Part shown: positions 1,398 through 31,650 of the stretch, one piece after another | Layout of the letters: every line of letters begins with the position of its first letter | Numbering within the stretch: position 1 is the first letter of the stretch | IMG/VR virus record: IMGVR_UViG_3300045131_001128 | Span: 1 to 33,900 of that record | Length of the DNA: 33,900 bases | DNA from: a virus | Reading direction: 5' to 3' (one strand) | Translations under genes and position numbers: made by a program | The notes under the pieces: generated by a model | Told to the model about the DNA's origin: nothing | The model's input: the letters and a program-made list of their open reading frames with translations, nothing else | Database searches by the model: none

Positions 1398-1427
1398 ATC
1401 ATAGCATATGGTAAAATGGTCGGATAT
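1398..1427 (-). promoter_or_regulatory. Late promoter copy 1 (TCCGACC type), leaderless start
   Basis: On the minus strand TCCGACC (1424-1418) is followed by exactly 14 nt and TATGAT (1403-1398), with TGC just before the -10 (extended -10). Seven nt separate the -10 from the ATG at 1390, which puts the predicted start of transcription on the AUG. The same layout recurs at 7123, 15263 and 19648. Confidence 0.65.
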
Positions 1428-1428
1428 G

Positions 1429-1452
1429 AAAAAACCACCCTTTCAGGTGGTT
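1429..1452 (-). terminator. Rho-independent terminator
   Basis: On the minus strand a 7-bp stem AACCACC/GGTGGTT is followed by six T. It lies 6 nt after the stop of the small gene at 1459-1650 and before the promoter of the fibre gene, closing the small-gene cassette. Confidence 0.8.
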
Positions 1453-1458
1453 ATTCTC

Positions 1459-1650
1459 CTAAGCTATGTTTTCAACCCAGACTTGTCCATTCCCTTCAAC
1501 CGGTGTAACCAAGTATCTAACATTTCCATAGGATCGTTTAACATCTAAGATAATTACTTTGACATTTAATCCCCCTTGATTAACGTGAACCCGTTTTTGA
1601 AGTAGTTTAGTAAACTCTACTGCTGATGCGAAATTTTGTTTTTTATCCAT
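1459..1650 (-). CDS. Small protein of unknown function (63 aa)
   Basis: Not recognised. It is a basic, soluble-looking protein with a helical first third (residues 1-22) and a beta-rich remainder ending in VWVENIA. There is no signal peptide or membrane segment. It is the last gene of a four-gene cassette (2379 down to 1459) with its own promoter region and a strong terminator just after it. No Shine-Dalgarno; the start follows AATAAA, as for most genes here. Its place inside the late region but in a separate transcription unit suggests an accessory (moron-like) role. That is inference. Confidence 0.6.
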   Translation of the reverse strand: MDKKQNFASAVEFTKLLQKRVHVNQGGLNVKVIILDVKRSYGNVRYLVTPVEGNGQVWVENIA

Positions 1651-1660
1651 TTTATTTTGA

Positions 1661-1876
1661 TTAGTTTTTAAAAAGAGTTGTGTAACTCCCTATGCGAGAA
1701 CCATCTAATTTGTAGTAGGCAAAACCGTGATTTGTCTTAACACAAAAGAGTTCAGCGCCATCTTTTTTTACAAGTGTATAACCTTTATCACCGTGAAAGT
1801 CAGAGGCCTTAAAGAAAACTCTATTACTTTCATTATTTCTGATAGTTTGAATTTTATCTTTTAATAATGTTTTCAT
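1661..1876 (-). CDS. Small protein of unknown function (71 aa)
   Basis: Not recognised. A short lysine-rich helical start is followed by a compact beta-rich region with repeated aromatic and glycine positions (GYTLVKK, GFAYYKLDG, GSYTTLF). No cysteine pair, signal peptide or membrane helix. It lies 1 nt downstream of the 66-aa gene and 10 nt upstream of the 63-aa gene, clearly one operon. A host-interaction or regulatory role is possible but nothing in the sequence shows it. Confidence 0.6.
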   Translation of the reverse strand: MKTLLKDKIQTIRNNESNRVFFKASDFHGDKGYTLVKKDGAELFCVKTNHGFAYYKLDGSRIGSYTTLFKN

Positions 1877-1877
1877 C

Positions 1878-2078
1878 TTATTTTGTTATTACTCCTTCTT
1901 CGATTAAAGCACTCGCGGTTCGACCAAACCAACCTTGTAATTGCCAAACTAATTTAGTGTCAACTAGATATTGCCAAGCCTCAATTACTGCTTCTTCACA
2001 AGGTGCTTCCTCAAAACCTTCGGCATAAGCTGTAGCCATATAACTTGATTTGATATATTTGTATATTTTTTCTTTCAT
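1878..2078 (-). CDS. Conserved small phage protein (66 aa)
   Basis: Acidic, helical protein. The core (residues 30-62) reads as AWQYLVDTKLVWQLQGWFGR followed by ASALIEEGVI. From memory, this W-x-YL ... W-x-LQG-x-x-GR-x-A-x-x-LI-x-x-G pattern is widespread among uncharacterised phage and plasmid proteins; no function is known to me. Second gene of the small-gene cassette, 4 nt after the 98-aa gene. Confidence 0.65.
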   Translation of the reverse strand: MKEKIYKYIKSSYMATAYAEGFEEAPCEEAVIEAWQYLVDTKLVWQLQGWFGRTASALIEEGVITK

Positions 2079-2082
2079 AAAT

Positions 2083-2379
2083 TTATTTCTTAATTGCTAA
2101 GATGAATGATCCACAACAGTTATAGATTTCAATTCCCTGATGAACTCCGTCATCATAAACAGTGAACAAATCTCCTGATGACCCTACCAACCAACAACCA
2201 CATATTCCTAAAGTATATTGATTATCCGGTCTATCATCTGATTTGATTGGTCTAAAACCTTTATCATCACAAGGCATTACACAATCGACCATACCGTCAA
2301 AATTTGTTTTGTTGTTAATTAGTAGTTTACCTTGATTTTTCTTGATGAAACTCTTTAAAGTTGCTCTAGTTATTTTCAT
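2083..2379 (-). CDS. Conserved hypothetical phage protein (98 aa)
   Basis: First gene of the small-gene cassette. The visible pattern is an N-terminal TRATLKSFIKKN helix, an FDGMVDCVMPCDD segment, a TLGICGCWLVG-S/D-D strand pair, and a C-terminal YNCCGSFILAI. Similar spacing of FDGM ... LGI-x-G-x-W-V-G ... N-x-CG-x-F occurs in many phage and bacterial hypothetical proteins (recalled, not searched). Six cysteines, with C69/C71-like and CC pairs, could bind metal. No SD; it follows an A/T leader about 90 nt downstream of a predicted promoter at 2470-2498. Confidence 0.7.
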   Translation of the reverse strand: MKITRATLKSFIKKNQGKLLINNKTNFDGMVDCVMPCDDKGFRPIKSDDRPDNQYTLGICGCWLVGSSGDLFTVYDDGVHQGIEIYNCCGSFILAIKK

Positions 2380-2398
2380 ATATTTTTTAATTAGTTTT

Positions 2399-2417
2399 AA
2401 GGTTGGACTAGAACCTT
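2399..2417. other. Leader hairpin of the small-gene cassette
   Basis: Perfect 6-bp inverted repeat AAGGTT/AACCTT with a 7-nt loop in the 5' leader of the cassette. No T-run follows on the minus strand, so it is not an intrinsic terminator. It could protect or pause the leader RNA. Confidence 0.4.
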
Positions 2418-2469
2418 ATTTGCTACTCTCTATTCTGTTATCAATGAACCCTCCTTCCTTATGCTTATA

Positions 2470-2498
2470 ACTATAAAGCATAGGGAATGAGAAGTAAA
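2470..2498 (-). promoter_or_regulatory. Sigma70-like promoter of the small-gene cassette
   Basis: On the minus strand TTTACT (2498-2493) and TATAGT (2475-2470) are separated by 17 bp. That is 4/6 and 5/6 to consensus with ideal spacing. Inverted repeats AAACGC/GCGTTT (2496-2513) and ATGCTT/AAGCAT (2461-2481) overlap it and may be operators. The promoter at 29045-29072 has the same GCGTTTAC and TAAGCAT elements. Confidence 0.5.
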
Positions 2499-2528
2499 CG
2501 CTGTTTTGCGTTTCTTTTCATTTCATAT

Positions 2529-2537
2529 GTTAGTAAC
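2529..2537. promoter_or_regulatory. GTTAGTAAC palindrome, site 1
   Basis: Odd palindrome GTTA-n-TAAC, 53 bp upstream of the cassette -10. It lies within an 18-bp exact match to 28825-28842 (ending GTTAGTAACT) and recurs at 29094-29102. The placement fits an activator or operator site for a phage regulator. Confidence 0.5.
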
Positions 2538-2538
2538 T

Positions 2539-2567
2539 AAAAATAGCCTTGATTTACAAGACTATTT
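2539..2567 (-). terminator. Terminator after the 61-aa gene
   Basis: On the minus strand an 11-bp stem AAATAGTCTTG/CAAGGCTATTT (one G-U pair, 5-nt loop) runs into five T. It ends the late transcript coming from the 940-aa and 61-aa genes before the cassette promoter. Confidence 0.7.
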
Positions 2568-2593
2568 TAACACTATATTTTAAGTGATTTAAG

Positions 2594-2779
2594 TTATTCG
2601 CTACTATTTACTGAATCCATTGCTCGAATTATGTTATCTTCTCTTGCATCATATTCATTTGGTTCGGTTGTTTCTTCAGGTGGAAGAAAACCCTTTGCTT
2701 GTAGTTGAGCAGTAGCTTCTTCAATTATTTCTTCTTTTGTTTTCCCTTCTGTGGGAATCATTGCTATTAGTTTTTTCAT
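2594..2779 (-). CDS. Small acidic protein of unknown function (61 aa)
   Basis: Not recognised. The N-terminus MKKLIAMIPTEGKTKEEIIEEATAQLQAKG looks like a strand followed by a helix, then an acidic, probably disordered tail. It lies 2 nt after the 940-aa gene and before a terminator, so it is the last gene of that late transcript. It may be a small virion or assembly protein. Confidence 0.6.
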   Translation of the reverse strand: MKKLIAMIPTEGKTKEEIIEEATAQLQAKGFLPPEETTEPNEYDAREDNIIRAMDSVNSSE

Positions 2780-2781
2780 AT

Positions 2782-5604
2782 TTATTTTTTAGGTTTCTTT
2801 AAATAAATAGTTTCAAATGATTCAAGATCAAATATACCTATCTGATCTGCCTTGTTACCGACCTTAATGGCTTCACTCTTACTATTAAAGACAGTTGGAA
2901 TATCAAAGTAAACTTTTCCTTCATCTACCCACATTCCTAAATGCCTACCTGATTTTAACGCGTTATCCAAATTTTGTAAAACATAGTTACGCACAGCCTC
3001 CTTTGTTAGGTCTTTTTGAGGGATAGCTTTTTCAGTCAATTTACTATCAGCAACAGAGAAGCCTTTGGTTGGAATATCTCCATTTAAAGCTATAGTTACA
3101 CCACCATTCTTCTTTGTAAGAGCTTTAGCCTTAGTAACTATGTCATCTAATTGAGAACTTTTAGCAGTTACATCAAATAGAGCCGGATTAGTTCCTTTTG
3201 GCACTTCATTATTAAAGCCTGTAAAGCTACTGATCCTTTTATCAGTTCTTAAAGCATTGTAATTTTCAAAAGGTTTGTTTCCTACTTCGGTAGTTATATA
3301 TGAGGTTGGTATTTCACGACCAGTTGCCTTAGCTCTTATTTTAGCTCTTTGTAAAGCAATTTCAGGTGATACTTGATTCAAAGATAAGTGAACATCATAA
3401 CCATTAGCTTTAGCTTTATCAATAATGATCTGTAATTTATCCATTTTAGCTCCAACGGTTGGAAGCACAATGTTATCTCCATTCTTCATAGCGCGGATCA
3501 AGAGATTACCTTCAAGAATGTCATTTGACTCTCGGTGGACTACTTTTGCTCCTTTACCACCATCATATTCAGGTAGTTTAACCTTAACCCTATCAGAATC
3601 AATTACTAGAGATTGGAATTTCTTTGAAAGTGGATTAACTAAAACTTCTGATTTACCAGAGGCCGGTGGCCCAATAACTAAATCAAGTCTTTTACCTTGT
3701 TTAACTTTTCCACCAAAAACATCTTCACCGGTTGCTGATTTACCAGTCCAAGCTCCCTCTTTATAAATATCGTCAGCTATTTTATTATGTAGTTCAAGTC
3801 TGTTTGCTGGGTAAGATGATTTTACATCTGGAACTTTACCCGCTATAATATCTTTAGGTTTTTTATTAACAGTCGGTGTAAGGTCTAACACTGATTTCTC
3901 ACCGGTAACCCCGTTAACAACATTTATGGAATTATTTGCACTCTTACTTGTCGGAATAATTGTCTTTGAAGTGCTTAACTTTGTCTTCTTTGACAGTAAA
4001 CTCTGAACCAAGTCCAAACCCATTTCTTCATAAATATCTTTATACTTTGCTTTTAATGTTTTAAGAACAGCAGCAACTTCTTTTGGTGTTTGTTCACCTA
4101 AGTTTTGAATCAATAATCTTTTCATCGGATTAGAGATAAATTCACTTTGAACTACATCAGCTACCTTATTAGACACCGCGTGTCCTAGAGCTGTCCCTAA
4201 GATTGGATGTCCGATACTTTGTCCTACAGTTAAACCAACAACATCACCGGTTAGTTTCATAAACATTCTTGATAAAGCACCGCCATTCACTTTTTTACCA
4301 TTTAAAGCATCAAGAAAATCAATGGCATCATAATGTCCTTGAATCAATTTATTTAAATCTCTAATGGTATCACTCTCGGTTGCTCCTTCAATTATTTCCT
4401 TAGCTGCCTTTCCCACCATTGAATGAGCATCATAACTAAATTTAGCATTTGGGTTTTTGTATGATTTTGATAAAGCTGCTTGTTCGGTTTTTAACTTATC
4501 AAGTTCAATTAACTCTATACCATCTTGATATAGTGGAGATCCTTTATAACCTTCGCCAATTTCAGCTAATACTTTTAAGGCTTGTTTCTTTTCAGCGGCT
4601 TTTTTTGCACCTGACCAAGGTTGAGCCTCAATCAAAGCATCGGTATAATCTGTTATAGCCTCAATAGATACTCTTGCATCACTCAAGAATAAATCTTCCT
4701 GTTTTAATTTTGAAAGTTCTCCAATTTTTTTCCATAAAAATTCCTGTCCTTCTACTGTTGAAGCACCATTCCCTACCATATCTGGTAAGGTATTTTTTCC
4801 ATACATTTGTAAGACACCAATTGGATCAGTTTTATTGACCATTTCCGCTGTATCAAGAATGGCTTGTGGTTTTACATATTTAGCAGCCGATTCTCGATAA
4901 ACTTGACCTAATTGACCTCTAACCATCGTTTCTCTCATCGTTGGGTTAGCAAACTTAACTGCTTTTGAGATTACAGGTGTCACTGCACCTCCTACAAGGC
5001 CCGTAGTAGCACCAAAAGCTCCACCCTTAGTAGTTTCTATACCTATGCTTTTAAGGGTTGAATCTGGGCTTTGTGCCTCTGCACCACCAAACATTAAGGC
5101 ACCGCTAACTGATTCATATTTAATACCAGTTTTAATCGCATTGATAATTTGCTGTTTGATTCCCTCTTTAATGGCTCCGGTTGCACCATATCCACCAACT
5201 AGATAAGAACCCATCTCGGCACCAGCACCAATAGCCTCCTTAACTGATCCTAAAGGTTTTACCTTACCAAAATAACCAAAGTCATAACCTTCGGCTTTTC
5301 TTCTTTCTACCTCAGCGGCGCTTTGATCTAAAGTTTGTTGAGCTTCAACTCCTTTACCACCTATTTTTTGTCCAATAGATTTAACCAGATCCATTCCAGT
5401 TCCTAAAGCCGTAATACCTGAGGCAGCAGTTTTAAGAAAAGGGGAAGCGGCACTCTGAACAAAACTTTGAAACATACCCGGACCTTTTTCGGCTAATGGT
5501 TTTTTACTTACTGGAGTTCCATATTTAGAAAAATCAGTAGCACCAACTGGCACTCCTGTTTTTTCATTTATAGGTTGTCCATATTTACTAAAATCTGTTG
5601 CCAT
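2782..5604 (-). CDS. Large virion (probable ejection) protein with zeta-toxin-like kinase domain
   Basis: 940 residues. ATDFSKYG occurs twice in the first 30 residues. Residues about 40-230 and 440-480 are Gly/Ala-rich and may contact membrane; 290-430 and 500-545 are helical. Residues about 605-815 look like a zeta-toxin/AAA-type small-molecule kinase: Walker A GPPASGKS at 645-652, IDSDR at 668-672, H690 in VVHRES, and an Arg-rich segment LQRAKIRAKATGREIP at 751-766. Residues about 868-935 (GRHLGMWVDEGKVYFDI ... IGIFDLE) recall a domain often found near the ends of large phage polyvalent proteins. Position after the tail genes suggests a protein carried in the virion and ejected into the cell. 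If active, the kinase would phosphorylate a nucleotide sugar such as UDP-GlcNAc; that is inferred from the family. No antitoxin-like partner is evident. Confidence 0.75.
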   Translation of the reverse strand: MATDFSKYGQPINEKTGVPVGATDFSKYGTPVSKKPLAEKGPGMFQSFVQSAASPFLKTAASGITALGTGMDLVKSIGQKIGGKGVEAQQTLDQSAAEVERRKAEGYDFGYFGKVKPLGSVKEAIGAGAEMGSYLVGGYGATGAIKEGIKQQIINAIKTGIKYESVSGALMFGGAEAQSPDSTLKSIGIETTKGGAFGATTGLVGGAVTPVISKAVKFANPTMRETMVRGQLGQVYRESAAKYVKPQAILDTAEMVNKTDPIGVLQMYGKNTLPDMVGNGASTVEGQEFLWKKIGELSKLKQEDLFLSDARVSIEAITDYTDALIEAQPWSGAKKAAEKKQALKVLAEIGEGYKGSPLYQDGIELIELDKLKTEQAALSKSYKNPNAKFSYDAHSMVGKAAKEIIEGATESDTIRDLNKLIQGHYDAIDFLDALNGKKVNGGALSRMFMKLTGDVVGLTVGQSIGHPILGTALGHAVSNKVADVVQSEFISNPMKRLLIQNLGEQTPKEVAAVLKTLKAKYKDIYEEMGLDLVQSLLSKKTKLSTSKTIIPTSKSANNSINVVNGVTGEKSVLDLTPTVNKKPKDIIAGKVPDVKSSYPANRLELHNKIADDIYKEGAWTGKSATGEDVFGGKVKQGKRLDLVIGPPASGKSEVLVNPLSKKFQSLVIDSDRVKVKLPEYDGGKGAKVVHRESNDILEGNLLIRAMKNGDNIVLPTVGAKMDKLQIIIDKAKANGYDVHLSLNQVSPEIALQRAKIRAKATGREIPTSYITTEVGNKPFENYNALRTDKRISSFTGFNNEVPKGTNPALFDVTAKSSQLDDIVTKAKALTKKNGGVTIALNGDIPTKGFSVADSKLTEKAIPQKDLTKEAVRNYVLQNLDNALKSGRHLGMWVDEGKVYFDIPTVFNSKSEAIKVGNKADQIGIFDLESFETIYLKKPKK

Positions 5605-5606
5605 AA

Positions 5607-7115
5607 TTATTTATATTCAACTAACATTCCGTCAGCGATTGCATTGTTAATTCCTTCTCTATTTGATTGAATTACTAACCTTTCATTGGTATTTGGATTT
5701 ACAATTTCAACTGTGGCTGTCATTCCATTTGCAGTCGCTAAAGCACCTCTTACTTTAGCTAATTCTACTCTAGCGGATTTGTCACCTAAGTTTGTGCCAA
5801 GTGAAGTAACGGATCTTGCTAATGTCTTAGCTTCAAAGTCGGAAATTGCACCAGAACCTTTCATTTGAGCACGAGCCTCGATAGATAATTGAGAAATAAG
5901 CTGACTAACTTGATTTTTAACTTGCTGTTCATTAGAACCTGGAGTCCAATAAGTAAAAGGATTCTTGGCACCAAATACCTGGTCAAGATAAGGGGAATTT
6001 ATAATAGTATCGACTAAACCAAGTTTCTCTAGGACAGCACTCTGTTGAGTAGCAGCAATAGTTCCGGGTGCTGAAGCTGTAATTTTTTGCTGTAGTTCTT
6101 GCATCTGTAATTTCTCTAATTGAGAAGTTCCATAGCCTTGAATTGCAGCATAGGCTTCATCAGAAGTGGTCGCAGCACCAATTGCTTGTAAGACAGAAGC
6201 CGGAGCACCTGCCGCCACCGCAGTTTGATAAGCATCTTTTTTAGCATTAGCGAAATCAGCCGCTTTAGTTTTAGCTGCATCAATAGCATTTTGCGCATCA
6301 AACTTCTCACTCTCTGTCATATCATTTTGATACATTCCATACATCTTTTCTAGGGTTGTGATTTGATTATTGATTGGTTCAAATTCTGCTTTTATCTTAG
6401 CGGCCACAATAGAATTAGCAGTATCAAGATCACCCAAAGCAACCGCTTTAATAATCGACAAATCAGCAAGGTGTTCATCTCTTTGTTTGGTTATTTGACT
6501 TTTAGCAGCAGAAAGATGACCAGTTGATTGTCCTTCAGCATTTAAAGCCAATTCTCTTAATTGTTTCTCATAAGCGCGAGAAGTAATAAGAATATTTTTA
6601 TCAGCTTCATTTAAGGCTCTAGTTTTGTCATCAATTTTTTGCTGTTCTTGTAAAGACAAGGTTTTCTCTCCTTCTTTTCCTTGTTTAGCATAAAGACCAG
6701 TTAAATTCTCTCGGATCGTATCAGATTCAGATTTATCCTTCTTTGTTGCACCTTCTACACCGGTTGCACCATAAATACCTAAAGCGCTACCAGCTTTATT
6801 GTTATTTTCTGCTGGTGGAACGATTGGTGTGCCATTTCCGGCTAAAACACTAGAAGTGATTGGGGTATTTTGGGTTTTAAGGTAATTTAACAAAGTAGAG
6901 AAGTTTGTATCATTACTAAAATCCATTGGCCCTTTATTAGAAATAGGACCAACTAGTTTTGAATTAGGAACAGGTGTTGGAGTTAAAACCGGTGCGGTGG
7001 CAGTAGGGGAATCATACTGAGTGGCCGGTGCTATCTTTCCTTTACCTAAAACAGGCATCTTAAAGGTGTTATTTGTAAGATATGAATCTAATGATTTTAA
7101 AGGGTCTATTGCCAT
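5607..7115 (-). CDS. Probable internal virion / DNA ejection protein (502 aa)
   Basis: Residues 1-110 are Pro/Thr/Asn-rich and low in complexity. Residues about 125-360 are long Ala/Lys/Gln/Glu-rich helices typical of internal rod-forming proteins. The C-terminal part (IEARAQMKGSGAISDFEAK followed by TLARSVTSLG) resembles a conserved helical motif in phage proteins encoded beside tail genes; I cannot name its family. It lies 2 nt upstream of the 940-aa gene and starts at a TCCGACC-type promoter with a predicted leaderless start at ATG 7115. The pair may form the ejectosome of a short-tailed phage. Confidence 0.65.
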   Translation of the reverse strand: MAIDPLKSLDSYLTNNTFKMPVLGKGKIAPATQYDSPTATAPVLTPTPVPNSKLVGPISNKGPMDFSNDTNFSTLLNYLKTQNTPITSSVLAGNGTPIVPPAENNNKAGSALGIYGATGVEGATKKDKSESDTIRENLTGLYAKQGKEGEKTLSLQEQQKIDDKTRALNEADKNILITSRAYEKQLRELALNAEGQSTGHLSAAKSQITKQRDEHLADLSIIKAVALGDLDTANSIVAAKIKAEFEPINNQITTLEKMYGMYQNDMTESEKFDAQNAIDAAKTKAADFANAKKDAYQTAVAAGAPASVLQAIGAATTSDEAYAAIQGYGTSQLEKLQMQELQQKITASAPGTIAATQQSAVLEKLGLVDTIINSPYLDQVFGAKNPFTYWTPGSNEQQVKNQVSQLISQLSIEARAQMKGSGAISDFEAKTLARSVTSLGTNLGDKSARVELAKVRGALATANGMTATVEIVNPNTNERLVIQSNREGINNAIADGMLVEYK

Positions 7116-7122
7116 ATTGTTT

Positions 7123-7151
7123 ATATTAACATATTTAATAATGGTCGGATT
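7123..7151 (-). promoter_or_regulatory. Late promoter copy 2 (TCCGACC type), leaderless start
   Basis: TCCGACC (7149-7143), 14-nt spacer ending in TGT, then TAATAT (7128-7123). Seven nt lie between the -10 and the ATG at 7115. The upstream end overlaps the stop codon of the 674-aa gene. Confidence 0.65.
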
Positions 7152-9175
7152 TATTTACTAGGAATAAGGCTATCATTATCTATTTGTAACTCCTCAATGG
7201 TTACTCCAATACCTCTCATTTCAACTTTAACTTGAATAAATTTACCATCAGAACCAAGCTGTGTAGAATAATAGTTGATAGTATTCTCATTAGTAATTGT
7301 GGTAAGTTCTGTCCAGTTATCAACATTAAAATAGAAGGCATCATTTACTACTGCAAAAGGGAAGGCTTCCCCAATGGCTACAGTCCAAGTTCCAGAGGCT
7401 AAAGTTAGAGAATCTATCCTTGCCATATGTCCTGATCCTACACCTCCTGTTATTTCTAGTTCATCCTCCACTGCTACATCTGACATATCAGCTGTAGTAG
7501 TAAAGGTTGAGGTTGTAACCCATTTAGCTGACCATTGTGTTGTTGATTCAAATCTAACGGAAGAAAAAGGAAGCCCATATCTATCCTTTGTTTTATATTT
7601 AATGATAATAGAATCTTCAGGCCCTAGTGGTTTAAATTTTAAAGTAATTAAATTATGATTATCAGTAACGTTTGCTGAGTTTAATCTTGGTGTTACAAAA
7701 TACCCCCTATTAGGTAAGAAAGCTGAAATAGGACAGAATACAGCTCTATTTGTTGAAAGAGTTTGTTTGGAAACCAAATCGGCAGTCATACAAATTCTAC
7801 CAACATAAGAAGAATCAAATAACAGAGAGTTTAATACTGCCATTGCTGAACGATTATTTGGAGAATAAGACCAACCATAATCATTAGTTTTAACACAATA
7901 GAAAGCTGGATTAGTTCCGGCAGCCGAAAAATCTATTGCGATTCCAGCAAGGGCGTCAGCATAAGTATCAGCAACTTTAAATACTCTCGCACTAACCTTA
8001 ATTATGAAGTAACACCTACCACCAGTTTTTAATTCTGGTATTGCAGTTGTTGCCTCGTGGAAAATTGGCATACCAGTAATTACCCCAGTTAAATAACTAT
8101 CGGCACCAGTTGTTACTGTGTTTACATTAGCATCTACAGTTACGGCAGTAAATGGCATACTGACGGTATTAGAGTAACTAGGAGAATATTTATGATAGAA
8201 AGCTCCATTTGAGTCATCATAACACCAAATACCAGCTGGGAAATCAGGTAAGACTTTTAATCCACTAGTATAAAGACCTGAGTCGAGATTAACCAAAATT
8301 AAATCTCCATCTGTTGCTAGTCCACGATTCGATACCCTTGAATAATCGTTTAGAGCATCGCACCATTCTAAATTGTTTTTATAAACAGGAAGTGTAGCTA
8401 AAGTATCAAATCCACCTCCGTTGAATCTTACAAGTTCTCCTAAGGAGTTAATACCAACAATCGTAGACTTAAACGTCTTAATTGAAGCTAATTCAAATGT
8501 GCCGACAGGGTAAGCATAATCGTGAGTAGCTTTTATCGCATCAATAATAAATAGTTTAGCCTCTCCACCTGATTTGCTTCTAGTCGCAATATATAGGTTA
8601 TTACCAACTGATGCCATAGAAGATACTTGATATTCGGTTGGGAGAACCAAGACAGTTGCATTAACGGCCCAAGAGGTATTTATAAATTTAACACAGTTAT
8701 TATTACCAACCGCTAGGCCAGCACCATATAAAGTTAAACAAGTTGGAACTGAAGTGGAAAACACACCACCTGATACGCTGACATCTGTCCAATCTGTTCC
8801 AACCCTATAAGAAACATTAGAACCATCTGTCGCCATTTGGCATCCATTAAAATAAATACAGTCTTCTTCCACTCCAGGGGTTGGGGTATCAGTCCAACCA
8901 TAATTAGCAGCATCATAAAGTTGGTCAAAACCAGCGACACCATTATAAATATCATCTGAGTTTAAAAAAATAGTGCTATCACCGGCATAAATACAATCTA
9001 CCACATCAAAATCAGCATCCTTATCTTCAGAATATTGAGCAAAAGTAGCTTCAGCTAATTTAATATAGCCTTGTTCATCTAGGGAAATATTCCTAGACTT
9101 ATAAATCGTTCCGGTTAGATCCGATTTATTATCTTGAAGATGTTTCTTTGTTTCTTGATTTGGAATTATAAACAT
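7151..9175 (-). CDS. Tail knob/tube-like structural protein (674 aa)
   Basis: Almost entirely beta-stranded, with repeated short segments such as VGNNLYIATR, SLGELVRFNGG and ATDGDLILVN that look like propeller blades (residues about 60-330). A second beta-rich half ends in INYYSTQLGSDGKFIQVKVEM-like strands. Size, fold type and position after head-tail genes match the large tail (gp12/tubular B-like) proteins of short-tailed phages; no sequence motif proves this. It starts 4 nt after a 47-aa coiled-coil gene and ends at late promoter copy 2. Confidence 0.6.
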   Translation of the reverse strand: MFIIPNQETKKHLQDNKSDLTGTIYKSRNISLDEQGYIKLAEATFAQYSEDKDADFDVVDCIYAGDSTIFLNSDDIYNGVAGFDQLYDAANYGWTDTPTPGVEEDCIYFNGCQMATDGSNVSYRVGTDWTDVSVSGGVFSTSVPTCLTLYGAGLAVGNNNCVKFINTSWAVNATVLVLPTEYQVSSMASVGNNLYIATRSKSGGEAKLFIIDAIKATHDYAYPVGTFELASIKTFKSTIVGINSLGELVRFNGGGFDTLATLPVYKNNLEWCDALNDYSRVSNRGLATDGDLILVNLDSGLYTSGLKVLPDFPAGIWCYDDSNGAFYHKYSPSYSNTVSMPFTAVTVDANVNTVTTGADSYLTGVITGMPIFHEATTAIPELKTGGRCYFIIKVSARVFKVADTYADALAGIAIDFSAAGTNPAFYCVKTNDYGWSYSPNNRSAMAVLNSLLFDSSYVGRICMTADLVSKQTLSTNRAVFCPISAFLPNRGYFVTPRLNSANVTDNHNLITLKFKPLGPEDSIIIKYKTKDRYGLPFSSVRFESTTQWSAKWVTTSTFTTTADMSDVAVEDELEITGGVGSGHMARIDSLTLASGTWTVAIGEAFPFAVVNDAFYFNVDNWTELTTITNENTINYYSTQLGSDGKFIQVKVEMRGIGVTIEELQIDNDSLIPSK

Positions 9176-9179
9176 AAAT

Positions 9180-12017: not shown

Positions 12018-12022
12018 TCATT

Positions 12023-12745: not shown

Positions 12746-12751
12746 TTTATT

Positions 12752-12811
12752 TTATGGGGTTATCTCATAAGACAAAGTTTATCTTATAGGATAGCCCCAT
12801 AAGGGACTATC
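12752..12811 (-). promoter_or_regulatory. Two mutually exclusive hairpins between capsid and adaptor genes
   Basis: On the minus strand, GATAGTCCC (12811-12803) can pair with GGGGCTATC (12798-12790) through a 4-nt loop. TTATGGGG (12802-12795) can instead pair with CCCCATAA (12759-12752), extended inward by TATC/GATA and further pairs. Both use the same GGGG, so only one can form. No T-run follows. It may tune expression of the adaptor relative to the capsid protein, by processing or attenuation. Confidence 0.5.
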
Positions 12812-12817
12812 ACGTAG

Positions 12818-13669
12818 TTAGGCTACAGTAACATCGAACAATACTGGAACAGTATTTGCCCAAGCCTTGAAAGCGTAATCTACTCTCATTATGACCGCTA
12901 CTGCTGACATTGCTCCGTCTGCGGTTGCAGGCTCACTATCAACAACAACCTGGCCATAAGTTTCTTTAACAATTCCTAAGTGGAACTGCTTTTTGACACC
13001 AGCAAACAAGTGACCGGCTGCAATCTTGTTTGAAGAATAGTGGGTCATACCCATATATTCCAAACCTGACTTACCACCATTTCTTAATGCGGAATCAGAA
13101 GTTACGAAACCATTAGCTTGCATATAAGCTTCTAATAGTTCGAAATCTGCTGGGCGCCATACGATAAAACCTCCATTTCTCTCTAACAAAGAATCTCCGT
13201 TAGCTTCACGAATCTCTCTCTTGATACCTCTGATAATATCATCAATGTTACTTGAGGTAACAGTAATAACACCAGCTGGTCCTCCAATAGATGCGTTTGT
13301 GAAGTTAGTCCACTGTCCGTGTGCTGCGAGCATTGCAGTTTCGATTGCTTCGTTCAAAAGGATAGCTTGTTTATCAGCTAGATCCATTTGCTTAACAAAA
13401 GTCTGTTGTGCTAGATCAGCGCGATCAATTAACTGTGGAATTATACCAATACCATTGATAGTAATTGATTCATCAGTAATAACAACGTTCTGATGAGTGT
13501 AAGCAGAACCTCTTGCAGTAGTCTGAACTGTTGGTTCAGTGATGTAAGGATTGTGCAATACACGATCATTGGTGTATTCAACATTACAAATTTCTTTCCA
13601 TTTGTTATTCTCTGATAATCTCTCTTGGGCTTTGATTGTCCATTCCTCTGCGTAAACGATTGTGTTCAT
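12818..13669 (-). CDS. Major capsid protein (HK97-like fold expected)
   Basis: 283 residues, within the size range of small HK97-type capsid proteins. Seen: an N-terminal arm with EEWTIKAQERL, a central helix FVKQMDLADKQAILLNEAIE (about 91-110) that fits the spine helix, a GGFIVWRPADFELLEAYMQ segment, and a beta-rich end (AFKAWANTVPVLFDVTVA). It sits directly after a scaffold-like gene and before the adaptor, the standard position. Start ATG 13669 with an A/T leader and no SD. The codon choice looks even and strong expression is expected. The identity rests on pattern and context. Confidence 0.85.
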   Translation of the reverse strand: MNTIVYAEEWTIKAQERLSENNKWKEICNVEYTNDRVLHNPYITEPTVQTTARGSAYTHQNVVITDESITINGIGIIPQLIDRADLAQQTFVKQMDLADKQAILLNEAIETAMLAAHGQWTNFTNASIGGPAGVITVTSSNIDDIIRGIKREIREANGDSLLERNGGFIVWRPADFELLEAYMQANGFVTSDSALRNGGKSGLEYMGMTHYSSNKIAAGHLFAGVKKQFHLGIVKETYGQVVVDSEPATADGAMSAVAVIMRVDYAFKAWANTVPVLFDVTVA

Positions 13670-13709
13670 TTGATTATTAAAATTATTAAACTAATAAAGA
13701 CAAATGTTT

Positions 13710-14309
13710 CTATTTCCCGGCGACTGGATTTGAAGTAAAGTTGTTCTTACTTTTTTCAGTATTGATTCGAGCATTAACCACTTTCTGTCGAAGTTCTCTT
13801 TGGTCCACTGGAGGTAATTGACCTTTTGCGATCCAATAATCTACTTCGTTTGATTGTGTTTGGCCTGATCGTTTAGATCCAGTAGGGATCGCATCTTTCG
13901 TGGCTTTTAATTCTCTCATCTCTTTAAGTTCAGCTTGAAAATATTTATTCTCAATAACTTCCTCTAAAGATTTTCCTGATGAAGTCATAACTTCTTTAGC
14001 TAGTGTCATCTCATCATTTCCTTTAATGCCATTTGCTACAAGAAAGGCTTTTGCACCGTAATCTAACTCATCTTTTTTGCTAGTTTTCTTTGTAGGAACC
14101 TCATCCTCAATTCCAGCATCAGCTTTCGCGCGCTTTAATTGTCTTTGAAGTCTAGCCACCCTATCTGCTGGTGATTCAGCTGGTTTTTCAACTGGCTTGT
14201 CACCCTCTTTGTTTAAATCAACATCAACCTCCTTTTCTTTTAAATCGATGTCAACTTCTACTTCACCCTCTACTTTCTCTCCTGACTCATTGTTGTTTAT
14301 TTCTGACAT
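13710..14309 (-). CDS. Capsid scaffolding protein (199 aa)
   Basis: Highly charged and low in complexity. The first 60 residues are acidic (VEGEVEVDIDLKEKEVDVDL), then a basic helix RVARLQRQLKRAKAD, a helical middle, and a basic C-terminus rich in Asn, Arg and Lys. This is the usual make-up of tailed-phage scaffolds, where the basic end binds the capsid protein. It is immediately upstream of the capsid gene, 40 nt apart. No protease motif is visible. Confidence 0.75.
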   Translation of the reverse strand: MSEINNNESGEKVEGEVEVDIDLKEKEVDVDLNKEGDKPVEKPAESPADRVARLQRQLKRAKADAGIEDEVPTKKTSKKDELDYGAKAFLVANGIKGNDEMTLAKEVMTSSGKSLEEVIENKYFQAELKEMRELKATKDAIPTGSKRSGQTQSNEVDYWIAKGQLPPVDQRELRQKVVNARINTEKSKNNFTSNPVAGK

Positions 14310-14391
14310 AATGATATTGTCTAGTTAATCACTTTTGTAAGGTGTGAGAACCATAAATCAATTTGTAAAATTGAGAAACTTTTATTAAATA

Positions 14392-14805
14392 CTAATCTGG
14401 GACTACTGCTGCAACTACTGCTCCTACCGCTGAATAACCACGTGCCATCCACCCGATTGTATCACTGATTTTAACCACCTTAACAATCTGTGTGTCGGTA
14501 AATAGATATTCTTTTGTTCCGTCACAATCTTCAGAGTTAATTTCTTCTGCTGAAGTTGCTGGGGTTCGAATTTCAAAGTTAGCACCGGCTGCACCAACAA
14601 TAGTAATTTCGTGTCCGATCTGAACGTTTTTTACTGGTGGTAACACTATGTAATCATTAGCATCATTAGTTACACCAACTACAATAACAGATTTTGTTCC
14701 AGCGGGAATTGAGTTCAAAGTTGAATCAGAATCATCAGCCGTAATATTCATTGGTTTGAAGTTGACTCCTTTGACTGTGGGATTTATTGAATTATTAACT
14801 GACAT
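14392..14805 (-). CDS. Head decoration-like protein, paralogue B (137 aa)
   Basis: Beta-rich and Gly/Val-rich. Shares with the preceding gene (14817-15233) the motifs SIPAGTKSVIVVG / VLPPVKNVQIGHEITI / EIRTPATS / GTKEYL and GW-x-A-x-GYSAVGAVVAAVVPD. I estimate about 40-45 percent identity along the whole length, so the two arose by tandem duplication. Position before the scaffold and capsid genes suggests a head decoration or vertex protein. An 82-nt gap to the scaffold holds a weak hairpin CAATTT/AAATTG (14359-14373). Confidence 0.6.
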   Translation of the reverse strand: MSVNNSINPTVKGVNFKPMNITADDSDSTLNSIPAGTKSVIVVGVTNDANDYIVLPPVKNVQIGHEITIVGAAGANFEIRTPATSAEEINSEDCDGTKEYLFTDTQIVKVVKISDTIGWMARGYSAVGAVVAAVVPD

Positions 14806-14816
14806 ATATTTATTGA

Positions 14817-15233
14817 TTAAGCATCAGGAGTGATAGCGGCAATTACTGCACCAATAGCGGTATAGCCGTGACCTTCCCAACCTATTGAGTTACTAATTTT
14901 AGTAAAGTAATGAATCTGACTACCGGATGGAACTGTATATTCCTGAGTTCCGTCTGAATCAGTATTGTTAATCTTCTCTCCACTTGATGCAGGAGTTCGG
15001 ATCTCCATACCAGCTGCATTACAAATTACTGTGATAACGTGACCAATATTTACTGTGGCCAAACCAGGAAGAATGATAAAGTCATCTGTCCCGTTTACAT
15101 TAGCTCCTACTACTACAACACTAGCTCCTGATGGAATAGTGTTTGTTACTTTTTCTGTTGAATTTGGAAAAAGTAATGCTCCCTCTATATTTAATCCTTT
15201 TACTGAAGGATAATCACTTGATGGAATTGACAT
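14817..15233 (-). CDS. Head decoration-like protein, paralogue A (138 aa)
   Basis: First gene of the capsid transcript after late promoter copy 3. Beta-rich; contains NTIPSGASVVVVG, IILPGLATVNIGHVITV, EIRTPASSGEKINNTDSDGT and GYTAIGAVIAAITPDA, each matched in the neighbouring paralogue. It lacks cysteine pairs and membrane segments. A decoration role on the head is inferred from its partner position and from similar proteins recalled in uncultured phages. The start follows nine A's with no SD. Confidence 0.6.
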   Translation of the reverse strand: MSIPSSDYPSVKGLNIEGALLFPNSTEKVTNTIPSGASVVVVGANVNGTDDFIILPGLATVNIGHVITVICNAAGMEIRTPASSGEKINNTDSDGTQEYTVPSGSQIHYFTKISNSIGWEGHGYTAIGAVIAAITPDA

Positions 15234-15262
15234 TTTTTTTTAAGTTAATTGATAATAAATAA

Positions 15263-15291
15263 ATTCTACCATTATTCTTATTGGTCGGATA
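15263..15291 (-). promoter_or_regulatory. Late promoter copy 3 (TCCGACC type)
   Basis: TCCGACC (15289-15283), 14-nt spacer ending in TGG, then TAGAAT (15268-15263). Here the ATG (15233) is 29 nt beyond the -10, so a short 5' leader is expected, unlike the other copies. It lies just after the stop of the 615-aa gene. Confidence 0.65.
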
Positions 15292-17139
15292 TTACTCAAG
15301 AATAACAGAACAATCTAAGACGCCTCCGACCGTTATATAAAGGCCTCTTGTAAAACTGGTATCAAACAAATCGATAAATCTCTCTCCAGTTGTAGCTACT
15401 GCTGACAAAGTGTTGGTGTTTAGAATCAAACTTCCAACTGCACCCGATCCACTAGCTAAAGTAGCAGCACCCCAAGTAGTATTAGCTAAAGTTTCAGTGG
15501 TAGTAATAGCATTTCCAGCACTTCCAAGTAGTCTAGCTTGGATAACCTGTGAATCAGCAGCGTTTGTAGTTGCTATAACATCACCGTGTGGGATAGTTCC
15601 AGTTGAATATAGACTTCCCATACCAGAACCTCCATTTATTGCCAACTTCATATTATCAAGGGCATTTGCAACAGCAGCACCGTGTAAGATTTGATCCGCA
15701 ATAGCACTGGCTCCAGATGTTTCTGACAAAGCAGTTACAAAAGTATAGACTCGGCCATTGATTGTAATTGTAGCAGCCGCAGTTGTAACACCAGCATCAG
15801 AAGCGCCTGTTCCTCCCCCCAAAGTGGTATCTTCCCAAGCAGTATTAGCACAAGTGGTTGTAGTTGCATAAGCGTTTGGAGTTACTCCAGGAGTTCTAGC
15901 AATAACAGTTTGTTCAGTATCAGTATTTGTAGTTGCCACAACACCAGGATGAGCTAGAGTTCCGGTTGAATAATTAGTTCCAACAACTCCACTAGCATTG
16001 ATAGCGGCTTTAAGATTATCTAAAGCAGTAGCTTCATCTCCACCATATAAGACTTGGTAAGCCACAGCATCAGCACCTAGTGATTCAGAAAGTTCTGTTA
16101 CAAAAGTGTAAACAGTTGAACCAATAGTTACAGTTGCACCAGCAACGGTTACTCCGGCATCAGACGCACCAGTTCCTCCACCTAAAGTAGTATCTGGGAA
16201 CGAAGCAGCAGCACAAGTTTCGGTTGTAGCTACTGTATTAAGTGAAGTTCCTGCTACCCTACCTTTTAAAGTAATTGTAGTAGCATCAAAAGCACTTACA
16301 GTTACTTGGGTATGAGCAACAGTTCCAAAACCAAAAGTTGTTCCAGCTAAACCAGAAGTTTCATTTGCGATGATAGCGTCTTTCAAGTTAACAAGAGAAG
16401 CTTCAACAGTCGCACCAATTAAAACTTCATTTGCTACTGGAGGATTTACACTTAAAGAATCTCTAAAAGTATAAACTTTTGTTCCGATAGTTACTGTTTC
16501 AGCAGCCAAACCACCAGTTAAAGCATTTTTATCTCCGTCCCAAGTTAAATGAGCAGAAGATTCATCACAAGCAATCGAGTTACCGGCAGTTCCACCTAAT
16601 TTAGCAGTAGCAGTAATTACTAAACCTGAATCACTTAATGATAAGGTTATCCCTTCATTTACTTCGGCTGATATGGTTCCAGATGGACCAGATCCAAATT
16701 TAGCAGCCTTATAAAGATTAAGCATTGATAAGACAGCGGTTCCACCAACCAATACTTGATTAGCAGCAACAGGATCAGTTTTAAAGGTATAGACTTGGGT
16801 TCCAAAGGTTGCAGTATCTCCGTCTGAAACATCTGTATCATCAGAGGTTAAAGTTCCGGATGCTTTCACAACATCCTTATGATTAGTTCCAGCATTTGTA
16901 AAGACAGTAACAGCGTGTGAACCTGGCACTAATGCACCACTCGATACAATTTTAGATGTAGCGTGTGAAGCAGCAGCCATAGCTCCTACACTTGTTAAAG
17001 TTCCAACAGCAACAGCACTACCTTCGGTTCCATCAATCAAAGCGATAGTTCCGTTTGTGTGAGAGTTAATATTGATACCTTTTACGATACCAGGACCAAC
17101 TTTTATTATTCCACTTTCATTTTTGTTTATAACAGTCAT
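15292..17139 (-). CDS. Repeat-bearing virion surface protein (615 aa)
   Basis: Four repeats of about 110 residues (about 100-210, 213-321, 332-442, 452-562). Each has (V/I)TI-G-x-(K/T/R)-VYTF, an NQVL/YQVL (I/Y)GG element, a (D)N(L/M)K-x-AI helix, a TGT-x-(A/P)H strand and a GN/PN-A-x-TT segment. The flanks (GIVKGININSHTNGTIALID at 19-38, and DTSFTRGLYITVGGVLDCSVIL at 593-614) look like two halves of one small beta domain resembling stand-alone phage decoration proteins, so the repeats appear inserted into that domain. A head or tail surface display role is inferred. It lies between the portal and capsid modules. Confidence 0.65.
   Translation of the reverse strand: MTVINKNESGIIKVGPGIVKGININSHTNGTIALIDGTEGSAVAVGTLTSVGAMAAASHATSKIVSSGALVPGSHAVTVFTNAGTNHKDVVKASGTLTSDDTDVSDGDTATFGTQVYTFKTDPVAANQVLVGGTAVLSMLNLYKAAKFGSGPSGTISAEVNEGITLSLSDSGLVITATAKLGGTAGNSIACDESSAHLTWDGDKNALTGGLAAETVTIGTKVYTFRDSLSVNPPVANEVLIGATVEASLVNLKDAIIANETSGLAGTTFGFGTVAHTQVTVSAFDATTITLKGRVAGTSLNTVATTETCAAASFPDTTLGGGTGASDAGVTVAGATVTIGSTVYTFVTELSESLGADAVAYQVLYGGDEATALDNLKAAINASGVVGTNYSTGTLAHPGVVATTNTDTEQTVIARTPGVTPNAYATTTTCANTAWEDTTLGGGTGASDAGVTTAAATITINGRVYTFVTALSETSGASAIADQILHGAAVANALDNMKLAINGGSGMGSLYSTGTIPHGDVIATTNAADSQVIQARLLGSAGNAITTTETLANTTWGAATLASGSGAVGSLILNTNTLSAVATTGERFIDLFDTSFTRGLYITVGGVLDCSVILE
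15454..16842 (-). repeat. Four tandem coding repeats of about 330 bp
   Basis: The repeats in the 615-aa gene are clear at protein level. The last two are also similar at DNA level: both borders share GGTGGAGG-type glycine codons encoding LGGGTGASDAGVT. This points to recent internal duplication and possible copy-number change. Confidence 0.65.
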
Positions 17140-17159
17140 TTTATTAAGTTAATTATTTA

Positions 17160-17498
17160 TTAAAGCGCGGGATTTCCTTCTTTCTTTTCTTTGGGTGGCT
17201 CTACGACCCTTGCCATCCTTTTCAATTCATTGAAACCACCCTCTAAAGCATTGATCCCATACCACAATGCTCGAAGATCAGCTCCAACTTGCTCATTTGA
17301 TACTTCCTTATCTATATTTGCTACCAAGGTAAAGGCCATATTTCTTGTTGGGCTAGATGCTACTCCTTTTCTCAAGGTTCCATTACTATATAGCCCGGTC
17401 AGTAATATTTTTCTAACTGCCTCAAATTGTATTGGATTATTAACAAACTTATGAATTTCATTTGCCTCTAATTCGGTTAAATAACTTTTTTCGTCCAT
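17160..17498 (-). CDS. Small helical protein between portal and decoration genes (112 aa)
   Basis: Not recognised. All-helical by pattern: SYLTELEANEIHKFVNN, then FEAVRKILLTGLYSNG, and a last helix ALEGGFNELKRMAR before a lysine/glutamate-rich tail. It is 12 nt after the portal gene. Small helical proteins at this place can be head-completion or chaperone proteins, but no motif is decisive. Confidence 0.6.
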   Translation of the reverse strand: MDEKSYLTELEANEIHKFVNNPIQFEAVRKILLTGLYSNGTLRKGVASSPTRNMAFTLVANIDKEVSNEQVGADLRALWYGINALEGGFNELKRMARVVEPPKEKKEGNPAL

Positions 17499-17510
17499 AA
17501 TATTTTATAA

Positions 17511-19310
17511 TTAAGCAACTGGCACTACCGGTTGTCCGGTTGGTGGTGCTATTGGGCTAATAAGACCTTCATTTCCTGGTTCAGGTGTAACTGGAGTCGC
17601 TGGCATCATAGTAAATTTAGTAAAATCTCCTGGTGATAATCCTGATGCTTCTAACATTTCGTTAAATATCTTAGCCATTGCTGGATTTTGTAGAACTGCT
17701 GGATTTCCAATAATACCTCTAAAGATATTACTAAACTTATCTGTTAATTGATTTAGGTTCTTTTGTTTACCAGCAATATTAACCTTAACATCTATGTTGG
17801 CATCTTTCATCTCCTCTTTGAAGATAGACATAAAATGCTTATTGCCTTTTTTCTTAAATTCTTCTACGGCTTGATCTACAAATTGGTCAATCTGTTCTTG
17901 GGTTGTTACCTTTCCTTGAGTCATACCTTTTCTAATACCAACTGTGGCAAAAGTATTAGCTAATGAAGTGGCTACAAATTGCATCTCATCCATTGATAAT
18001 TCTTCCATCCAATCTGCACCTTGATTCATTTCGGCTACTAAATCATTGATAATCCAATCTCTATACATCTCACCAAAGAACGTAGCAATCCTACCTTGTC
18101 GGAATTCGTGAATACCTAATCCTTGTCCAGTTACAATTTGTGTAGTTCCAAGAGGAGTTCCTGATACTGGAGTAATACCTAGTTGAGCATCATTTGCTGA
18201 TCCAGTTGTTCTTCCATTTATTTCCCAATCTTGAATAGACTTCTCAAACCTCTCATAGTTCATTGGTTGTAAGACTACTTGTGATATGGTTGTGTTCTCC
18301 TCAGTCGTTAAGATTTCTCCTTTCTTTAAATCTGTTAAAGATTTATTCTTTCCAGCAAATGATTGATCTGTGGTTTGAACTGCAATGATAGAAGCAACAT
18401 CAAGCATTTCTCTGATCTGAATGATTGAGTAGTTAATCCAAATTTGTGGTTCAAACAATTCCTCTATTCCACCAAATCCACAAGCTCTACCATAAATTTC
18501 ATCTCTAACAATAGCTTTATAAGGTGATTTGCTTTCTTTTCCTTTATACAAAGTAATACCGTGTTTCTTATCATCTTTAGATTTGTAGAAACAAACAACG
18601 TGTAATTGACGTGAATATACTCCAGGATCTCCTTCTGGGTCTAAGTCAGTTTCAGGTCTAACAGCGTGTAATTCGTAAACTTCAATATATCTTCCTGGTG
18701 TCTTAGCTTTGTTGTTATCAGCTTGATCGGCAGACTTCTCGGCCTTAGCCATTGTAATAGCCTCATCAATAGCATCTGAATCCCATTTACCTTTCATTTC
18801 AGCTAACTGATCTGGTGCATAGGAATGTTTCTCACAAATTGGGCCGGAAAGAATATCAGTCTGGTCACAAAAAGCTATTCTCTGTAATGGCACTCTCTCT
18901 GGTCGTTTAGCATTAACCTTTTTAACTAAAGCTAAACCATAATCAACATAGCTCTCAACAACTTCATCAATCAAAGTGTCAAAGCTATATTTATAAGTCC
19001 AATTATCGTGATATTTCCTTACTAAAAGAGATTTATATGATTCATCAATATTATCTACATATGGTTCAATATCTGTGACGTTAAATCCTTCTGAACGATA
19101 CTGAACATTTAAAATAGGGCGAATAATATTACGAAAAGGTTTCTTACCCAATTCTGTATCTTCATAACGAGAGTTCTTTAAAAGAGTGGATCGTCTAATA
19201 TGTTCATACATATTCCATTCCCAACCACCAACAACCGGAACTTTCTGTGTTTTAAAAGCAGTTTCTTCAGTAATTATATATTCATAAATCGAATCTTTTT
19301 TTTCCTCCAT
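17511..19310 (-). CDS. Portal protein (599 aa)
   Basis: Length and position (upstream of scaffold and capsid, downstream of the terminase) match a portal. Seen: an N-terminal segment with RPILNVQYRSEGFNVTDIEP, a wing region with alternating strands (IEVYELHAVRPETD ... LHVVCFYKSKDDKK), GFGGIEELFEPQIWINYSII (stem-like helix), a long helix YRDWIINDLVAEMNQG, and a Pro-rich tail (PVTPEPG ... PTGQPVVPVA). The portal ring is the DNA gate and the docking site for the terminase and tail. It lies 1 nt after the 108-aa gene. I assign it by layout and composition rather than by an invariant motif. Confidence 0.75.
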   Translation of the reverse strand: MEEKKDSIYEYIITEETAFKTQKVPVVGGWEWNMYEHIRRSTLLKNSRYEDTELGKKPFRNIIRPILNVQYRSEGFNVTDIEPYVDNIDESYKSLLVRKYHDNWTYKYSFDTLIDEVVESYVDYGLALVKKVNAKRPERVPLQRIAFCDQTDILSGPICEKHSYAPDQLAEMKGKWDSDAIDEAITMAKAEKSADQADNNKAKTPGRYIEVYELHAVRPETDLDPEGDPGVYSRQLHVVCFYKSKDDKKHGITLYKGKESKSPYKAIVRDEIYGRACGFGGIEELFEPQIWINYSIIQIREMLDVASIIAVQTTDQSFAGKNKSLTDLKKGEILTTEENTTISQVVLQPMNYERFEKSIQDWEINGRTTGSANDAQLGITPVSGTPLGTTQIVTGQGLGIHEFRQGRIATFFGEMYRDWIINDLVAEMNQGADWMEELSMDEMQFVATSLANTFATVGIRKGMTQGKVTTQEQIDQFVDQAVEEFKKKGNKHFMSIFKEEMKDANIDVKVNIAGKQKNLNQLTDKFSNIFRGIIGNPAVLQNPAMAKIFNEMLEASGLSPGDFTKFTMMPATPVTPEPGNEGLISPIAPPTGQPVVPVA

Positions 19311-19311
19311 A

Positions 19312-19638
19312 TTATTTTAGTTGTAGCATTGTGTTCTTTGCAAAAAACTCTGCCATTAGCTTGTTATTAAATAACTTCCTAGCTTGAAATGGGTGCATTA
19401 TCCTAGTAACTTTCTTTCCATTATGAGTAACCTCAATAATAACCTTACCAGTAACCTTCTTTGGCTTAATAGTTAAAATAGTTTCGGCTAAATTATCTGT
19501 ATTAACAGTTAGTTTCTGACCACAAACAGATACAACAAATTCAAAAGAATTCTCTATTGCTTTTTTTGCATCCTCAATAACCTTACCAACATTCTTATTA
19601 GTAACCTCAACTCCTTTTGTTTTTTTAGTTCTTGCCAT
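19312..19638 (-). CDS. Small basic protein before the portal gene (108 aa)
   Basis: A lysine-rich N-terminus (MARTKKTKG), a central alpha/beta region with VVSVCGQKLTVNTDNLAETILTIKPKKVTGKVIIEV, and a C-terminal helix FQARKLFNNKLMAEFFAKNTML. Proteins of this pattern precede portals in uncultured phages (recalled); the function is unknown. It is the first gene of a late transcript, and its ATG lies 9 nt beyond the -10 of promoter copy 4. Confidence 0.65.
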   Translation of the reverse strand: MARTKKTKGVEVTNKNVGKVIEDAKKAIENSFEFVVSVCGQKLTVNTDNLAETILTIKPKKVTGKVIIEVTHNGKKVTRIMHPFQARKLFNNKLMAEFFAKNTMLQLK

Positions 19639-19647
19639 ATTGATTAT

Positions 19648-19677
19648 ATGTTATCACTTTAATAAATGGTCGGATAT
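19648..19677 (-). promoter_or_regulatory. Late promoter copy 4 (TCCGACC type), near-leaderless
   Basis: ATATCCGACC, then 14 nt ending in TGA, then TAACAT (19653-19648). The ATG is 9 nt beyond the -10. The promoter begins directly after the last base of the structured RNA at 19678-19807. Confidence 0.65.
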
Positions 19678-31649: not shown

Positions 31650-31650
31650 T

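Follow-up and report, generated by a model that had tools for sequence, protein, structure and literature searches.

The 33.9-kb window analyzed here is a fragment from an uncultured tailed phage in IMG/VR (record IMGVR_UViG_3300045131_001128), and its minus strand carries four copies of a nine-base element, ATCCGACCA, referred to below as the box, each at a fixed distance from a TAnnAT -10 hexamer. Our preferred reading, to which we assign a probability of about 0.77, is that these are late promoters at which a phage helix-turn-helix (HTH) activator would bind ATCCGACCA and a host sigma70-type polymerase would switch on the virion operons. The support is drawn from sequence, namely the motif, its conserved spacing, its position before virion genes, its conservation at orthologous sites, and its co-occurrence with an HTH gene, and from these we infer the binding of the box by the HTH protein, activation, timing, and the 5′ ends of the transcripts. 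The material throughout consists of metagenomic contig fragments.

A conserved box in the -35 region of putative virion promoters

A search of the window with TCCGACC-N11-TGNTANNAT returned exactly 4 matches, all on the minus strand (1398-1424, 7123-7149, 15263-15289, and 19648-19674), and 0 in 100 dinucleotide shuffles. This count agrees with the original prediction, made from the window alone, of four copies of TCCGACC-N11-TGnTAnnAT before minus-strand virion genes; the starts and the motif were right in that prediction, and the ends ran 2-3 bases past the box. The window contains 5 instances of TCCGACC by itself, where 0.64 would be expected; the fifth (15325-15331, plus strand) lacks a -10 and falls within the last part of a coding sequence. 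The full box comprises the 9 bases of ATCCGACCA, with the flanking bases kept at 4/4 sites, and it lies 13 bp upstream of the -10 hexamer, which is 14 bp when counted from TCCGACC. The gaps from the -10 to the ATG measure 7, 7, 29, and 9 nt for sites 1 to 4, respectively, just as had been described for two copies (7 nt) and one (9 nt); site 3, with its 29-nt leader, is not leaderless. A virion gene block had been proposed behind each copy, and the genes there are indeed virion-type wherever they can be assigned (portal-position, head, phrog_2534, and tail-fiber-like genes; Table 1).

The suggested motif search in related genomes located the box in G001, G013, L165, L184, L212, and others. We compared 15 promoter copies from the window, L184, G001, L010, L168, L165, L212, and L167, having left L184_sX out of a listing of 16 as coding; the second L184 box (2435, minus strand) falls within a 140-amino acid open reading frame (ORF), encodes part of it, and was dropped. 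CCGACC is invariant in 15/15 copies, with the preceding T present in 14/15 and the following A in 15/15. The distance from box to -10 is 14 bp in 11 copies and 11 bp in all 4 copies of L165 and L212, a clade with a naturally different spacing of this box. TGn is found at 8/8 sites with a non-consensus -10 versus 3/7 sites with TATAAT (Fisher p=0.026, the copies not being independent), a distribution that would be expected for sigma70 extended -10 promoters. Start codons lie 6-9 nt past the -10, but the promoters of head genes differ in having a leader, of 29 nt in the window and ~75 nt in G001. As a side observation, the box promoter of head genes is followed by a conserved leader of ~75 nt (TGTTATYAGC...AAGCATAAYC...GCC...GGCATRA) with a few covarying pairs, possibly a regulatory 5′ untranslated region.

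Conservation of individual sites can also be followed. G001 (IMGVR 3300020201_000056) has 3 box copies, and every TCCGACC in this genome is such a site; the one at 22528 is the counterpart of site 3 and stands ahead of scaffold/head-type genes. G013 has 2 copies. In L184, which is closely related to the window (head protein 85%), the orthologous gene still has the site-2 promoter ahead of it (85, minus strand; TCCGACC-14-TATAAT, 9 nt to the ATG of MDPLKALDSYL), with ATCCGACCATTA retained although the flanks diverge. The gene order TerL, box, portal-type gene is present in 7 contigs (the window, G001, L010, L165, L166, L167, and L212), three of which (L165, L166, and L167) were found via portal homology, blind to the motif, and have the box right after terL. 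Pattern searches of IMG/VR were far noisier: a 15-base pattern gave 49 matches, most of them single and chance-like in coding sequence, with those in G001, G013, L108, L110, L127, L130, and L120 genuine, and a relaxed pattern that included the ATG gave 45 matches, of which only L165, L195 (the same as L184), and L212 stand. A literature search found no paper describing a TCCGACC box.

Most terminase relatives lack the box. In most of those examined after terL, the ATG is preceded at 6-9 nt by a -10 of the ordinary sigma70 type, which in some is accompanied by a TTGACA-like -35. At the equivalent position, L183 (head protein 72% and portal 48% identical to the window) has TTGTTG-17-TGCTATTAT, while L013 has TTGACT and L030 has TTGACA. 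Because box-less relatives have a -35 at this position, the box can be read as a replacement -35, one that would occupy the place of the -35 in other relatives, ~3 bp nearer to the -10. A de novo search of box-less relatives for other repeated boxes gave no convincing second code, only TTGACA-type sites (L031/L032), and TATGAC in G003 was rejected as a box after its matches proved scattered and mostly far from starts.

Starting transcripts at or near the start codon does not set the box apart. Among 1186 starts in the terminase family, 35 have a TATAAT that ends 6-9 nt ahead of the ATG, versus ~6 expected from other distances, and TTG-type -35 hexamers peak at a 17-bp spacer for TATAAT sites near starts, which together argue that the host polymerase reads sigma70-type promoters in this family; L032 has a repeated TTGACA-17-TGnTATAAT ahead of genes. 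Shine-Dalgarno sequences occur at 1/31 window starts, and the upstream bases are A-rich. Since box-less relatives also have the -10 at 6-9 nt from the ATG, mRNAs that start at or near AUG appear to be usual across the phage family and not box-specific, so leaderless starts, which the original prediction had attributed to the motif, are better seen as a family trait. Among isolates, the window TerL is most similar to those of Flavobacterium phages (46.6% identity); hundreds of metagenomic relatives are closer still. The housekeeping promoter consensus of Bacteroidota has TAnnTTTG at -7. The four sites have TAnnAT instead, although the nearest isolate TerLs come from Flavobacterium phages. When genome bins were searched with TerL for a host, related phage contigs were scattered over DPANN archaea, Woesebacteria, Elusimicrobia, and others.

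A two-domain HTH protein that accompanies the box

Comparison of all ORFs of the window and G001 leaves two genes common to both beyond TerL and the structural genes: the HTH gene (24671-24979) and a gene for a 130-amino acid HExxH-like protein (24277-24669). The HExxH-like protein is also encoded by box-less L183 and L188, and the HTH gene is absent from both. (The HExxH-like gene lies at different genomic places in the window, G001, L183, and L188 and seems to move independently of the box.) Profile searches of IMG/VR recovered the HTH gene in 4 contigs with two- or three-sequence profiles and in 6 with an N-terminal profile, all box-bearing. Box and HTH gene occur together in L165 and L167, which were reached via the portal. 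The HTH protein is also encoded by L212, a contig picked out solely by the DNA motif, where the prediction might have failed. When the 44 TerL relatives whose contigs extend 2 kb or more upstream were compared, both box and HTH gene were present in 2/44 and neither in 42/44 (Fisher p=0.001, kinship ignored). Because of this co-occurrence, the HTH protein, whose gene had not been singled out in the original prediction, is the likely trans-acting factor for the box. The original prediction had named relatives that keep the proteins and lose the motif as evidence against it; taken literally, many relatives are of this kind, including L183 with its 72% identical head protein, but those relatives also lack the HTH gene and therefore support the pairing of box and factor.

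The predicted structure of the HTH protein is all-helical, with two HTH domains and a long joining helix (predicted local distance difference test score, pLDDT, 81; predicted template modeling score, pTM, 0.45). The best-conserved stretch among six homologues corresponds to helices 2 and 3 of the N-terminal HTH (TxRxxAxxFxVxxTTIW), and the recognition helix block reads VGKTTIWD in the window protein and VGxTTIW across homologues. This conservation of the recognition helix is as would be expected if the protein reads a common DNA sequence. Searches of solved structures and folds with the protein gave weak generic HTH matches only, and a sub-threshold match to phrog_836, "late transcriptional activator", was recorded (E 0.04-0.05). 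Sigma regions 2 and 4 were not encountered in the 102-amino acid protein, which gave HTH matches only, with the C-terminal HTH of 3 homologues weakly resembling sigma region 4 (E 0.03-0.04). Separately, box-less L025, L027, and L046 encode weakly similar HTH proteins with a zinc-finger-like tail (E ~0.01) and have no shared box; these might regulate via another DNA code.

Proposed mechanism and its alternatives

In the mechanism we propose, a host sigma70-type factor would read the -10 (TAnnAT), with TGn helping where the -10 is imperfect, and ATCCGACCA would take the place of the -35, spanning ~-34 to -26 with its center at ~-30. This center assumes that the -10 lies at -12 to -7 and that the first transcribed base is the A of the AUG or one beside it. 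The HTH protein, made before the late genes, would bind the box and recruit or stabilize the polymerase, and the portal, head, tail, and fiber operons would be switched on together. At 3/4 sites, the 5′ end of the mRNA would coincide with the AUG or lie no more than ~3 nt from it, as is usual in this phage family without Shine-Dalgarno sequences.

Several observations weigh against this mechanism. Given the 11-bp spacing, the geometry is not uniform within the family, and L011 has a doubtful copy in which ACCGACC and a weak -10 are 10 bp apart. In L167, the protein retains only the N-terminal HTH and ends in an unrelated C-terminus, and a single box is present in 15 kb. The co-occurrence counts come from few, partly related lineages (window/L184, G001/L010, L165/L212, and L167), and several box-only contigs are fragments that do not include the HTH region. 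Additionally, protein searches of IMG/VR depend on a short stretch of conserved residues, and distant homologues in box-less phages could escape them.

The original prediction had left the factor for TCCGACC as either a phage-encoded sigma or an activator, and the HTH gene that tracks the box supports the latter. A complete phage sigma is unlikely because the protein has only ~100 amino acids and the -10 is host-type. A further reading, which we think unlikely as well, would make the two-HTH protein a detached phage stand-in for sigma region 4, with the C-terminal HTH docking at the sigma4 seat, the N-terminal HTH reading ATCCGACCA, and the host sigma reading the -10 only; differences between the proteins would then explain the 14- versus 11-bp box spacing.

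Regulation by something other than a phage activator would fit less well with the fixed spacing and the co-occurrence. The box could be the operator of a host activator, with the HTH gene co-occurring through shared ancestry or host, and it is true that host regulators are able to act from -30 and that some of the phages have structural genes in common. However, the pairing crosses the structural phylogeny, since the window and L183 differ in it at 72% head protein identity while the window and G001 share it at 25% portal identity, and L165 still has box and HTH gene with a TerL that seems unrelated in sequence; we therefore regard a host activator as rather improbable. Quite improbable, too, is that the HTH protein or another protein binds the box as a repressor of otherwise ordinary host extended -10 promoters. 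The box does cover the -35 region, and TGn/-10 promoters can function without a -35 element (PMC2988021), but a repressor would need neither one exact -10 distance in every copy nor a site that replaces the -35 of box-less relatives. The sites moreover precede virion genes, which need turning on, and the HTH gene sits at the position of a late activator.

A conserved -35-like box at a fixed distance from the -10 is also expected if an alternative sigma encoded by the phage uses the box as its -35 and the HTH protein serves some other function, and the weak likeness of three C-terminal HTHs to sigma region 4 also leans this way. Yet the -10 (TATAAT, TGn) does not differ from that of box-less relatives in which a TTGACA-type -35 stands 17 bp away, so that host sigma region 2 seems to be its reader; sigma70 promoters normally have 17 bp between the two elements, a long way from the 14 or 11 bp seen here; and PHROGs scans of 40 window ORFs turned up no sigma-like family, the co-occurring protein having ~100 amino acids. 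We consider this distinctly improbable. It is very improbable that the repeats are packaging, recombination, or replication sites and not promoters, even though one copy adjoins terL and terminase small subunits are often HTH proteins, because terS is a separate gene beside the HTH gene in L010 and L165 and each genome has 2-4 copies, all accompanied by a -10 at a fixed distance and mostly 6-9 nt from a start codon downstream.

Known systems and other features of the window

A close parallel to the proposed late promoters driven by a phage activator is found in the MotA/AsiA sigma appropriation of T4, where the MotA box of middle promoters is centered at -30, 12 ± 1 bp from the -10, and replaces the -35, with TGn at about half of the promoters (PMC2988021). 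The promoters described here likewise combine a phage box centered at -30 in place of the -35 (ATCCGACCA 13 bp from the -10) with a sigma70 -10 that often has TGn, and MotA is two-domained, as is the window HTH protein. In contrast to the MotA sequence wwwTGCTTtA, the box is ATCCGACCA with CCGACC invariant and does not match the TGCTT consensus; the window protein is predicted to be all-helical with two HTHs whereas MotA has a double-wing fold; and the genes here are late/virion genes with mostly leaderless mRNAs, with one clade having ATCCGACCA at 10 bp. The conserved box at ~-30, the fixed spacing, the absence of a host -35, and the co-occurring phage DNA-binding protein would, on present sequences, give these promoters the MotA-like architecture of an activator box that replaces the -35. 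Membership of the HTH protein in the MotA family is not claimed because of the different box and the all-helical structure predicted for the protein. The PHROGs scans of 40 window ORFs turned up no MotA or AsiA family, although small or diverged proteins can escape such scans and the window is perhaps incomplete.

Late activators of the RinA/ArpU type in Gram-positive phages are small HTH regulators of virion genes and are encoded just upstream of terS. A small HTH gene is found directly upstream of terS in G001, L010, L165, and L167, with the order HTH, terS, terL, box, portal, but in the window the HTH gene lies ~3.7 kb upstream of terL. Pfam searches with E up to 0.1 or 1 assigned no RinA/ArpU family to the HTH protein, giving generic HTH families and weak unrelated matches. 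Thermus phage P23-45 has middle/late extended -10 promoters that are read by the host polymerase with little -35 dependence and a sigma4-binding protein, Gp39 (PMC7403470). Reading of phage genes by the host polymerase from extended -10 promoters would be common to both systems, but no sequence-specific box is described for P23-45 (PMC7403470), whereas a conserved box is present here. A MotA-like layout with an unrelated protein suggests that replacement of the -35 by a phage box arose more than once. The box, spacing, and leaderless start would amount to a clean regulatory code paired with a single candidate protein in uncultured phages, and the box helps to recognize fragments of this phage group, as one motif-found contig proved to encode the HTH protein.

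Table 1. Promoters, genes, and other features of the window, with the conserved leader in related contigs
Feature	Position	Strand	Description
Tail-fiber-like gene	2..1390	-	463 aa (amino acids), open at window end; behind site 1
Late promoter site 1	1398..1425	-	Box-14-TATGAT with TGC; tail-fiber-like gene ATG (1390) 7 nt past -10
Intrinsic-terminator-like hairpin	1433..1452	-	8 pairs with a T-rich tail; adjoins site 1 on its upstream side
502-aa virion-associated gene	5607..7115	-	phrog_2534 ("released from the phage upon host infection"); behind site 2
Late promoter site 2	7123..7150	-	Box-14-TAATAT with TGT; 502-aa gene ATG (7115) 7 nt past -10
Major head protein	12818..13669	-	In block downstream of site 3
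Late promoter site 3	15263..15290	-	Box-14-TAGAAT with TGG; 29 nt to ORF start 15233
Site 3 target			Head-gene block leading up to major head protein
599-aa gene, portal by position	17511..19310	-	Block downstream of site 4; homologue of box-driven G001 gene
Late promoter site 4	19648..19675	-	ATCCGACCA-N10-TGATAACAT, directly after TerL
Site 4 target			ATG of 108-aa ORF (start 19638) 9 nt past -10, then 599-aa portal-position gene
Terminase large subunit	19808..20983	-	Immediately upstream of site 4
Host-type promoter-like site	22771..22799	-	TGGACA-17-TATAAT; 10 nt before ORF starting 22761 (DUF5681-like), upstream of terL; single match
Candidate late activator	24671..24979	-	102 aa, two helix-turn-helix domains
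Conserved ~75-nt leader	L140:3955-4030; L168:631-705; L165:5051-5135; L212:4186-4100

The terminator-like hairpin just upstream of site 1 means that a new transcription unit plausibly starts there, with terminator-like sites as a whole not above chance. The TGGACA-17-TATAAT site contrasts with the box promoters, and promoter-like sites as a whole are also not above chance. The stretch between terL and site 4 (19680-19810, minus strand) has a tRNA-like look, with an acceptor-like GGGGTG/CACCCC and a T-arm-like hairpin; a tRNA or structured RNA at site 4 was rejected, as ARAGORN and Rfam were negative and the fold (z -1) was no better than shuffles. Two adjacent head-region genes (14392-14805 and 14817-15233) both match one L170 gene (55% and 46%), in the manner of a tandem duplication. 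A ParB-like gene and two genes resembling DNA methyltransferases form a cluster at 21770-24276, bordering the late region on its upstream side. Finally, the gene at 30666-31691 has a papain-like cysteine protease match (PF00112, above cut-off) and a weak peptidoglycan-binding match, and it perhaps encodes a lysis or structural protein.

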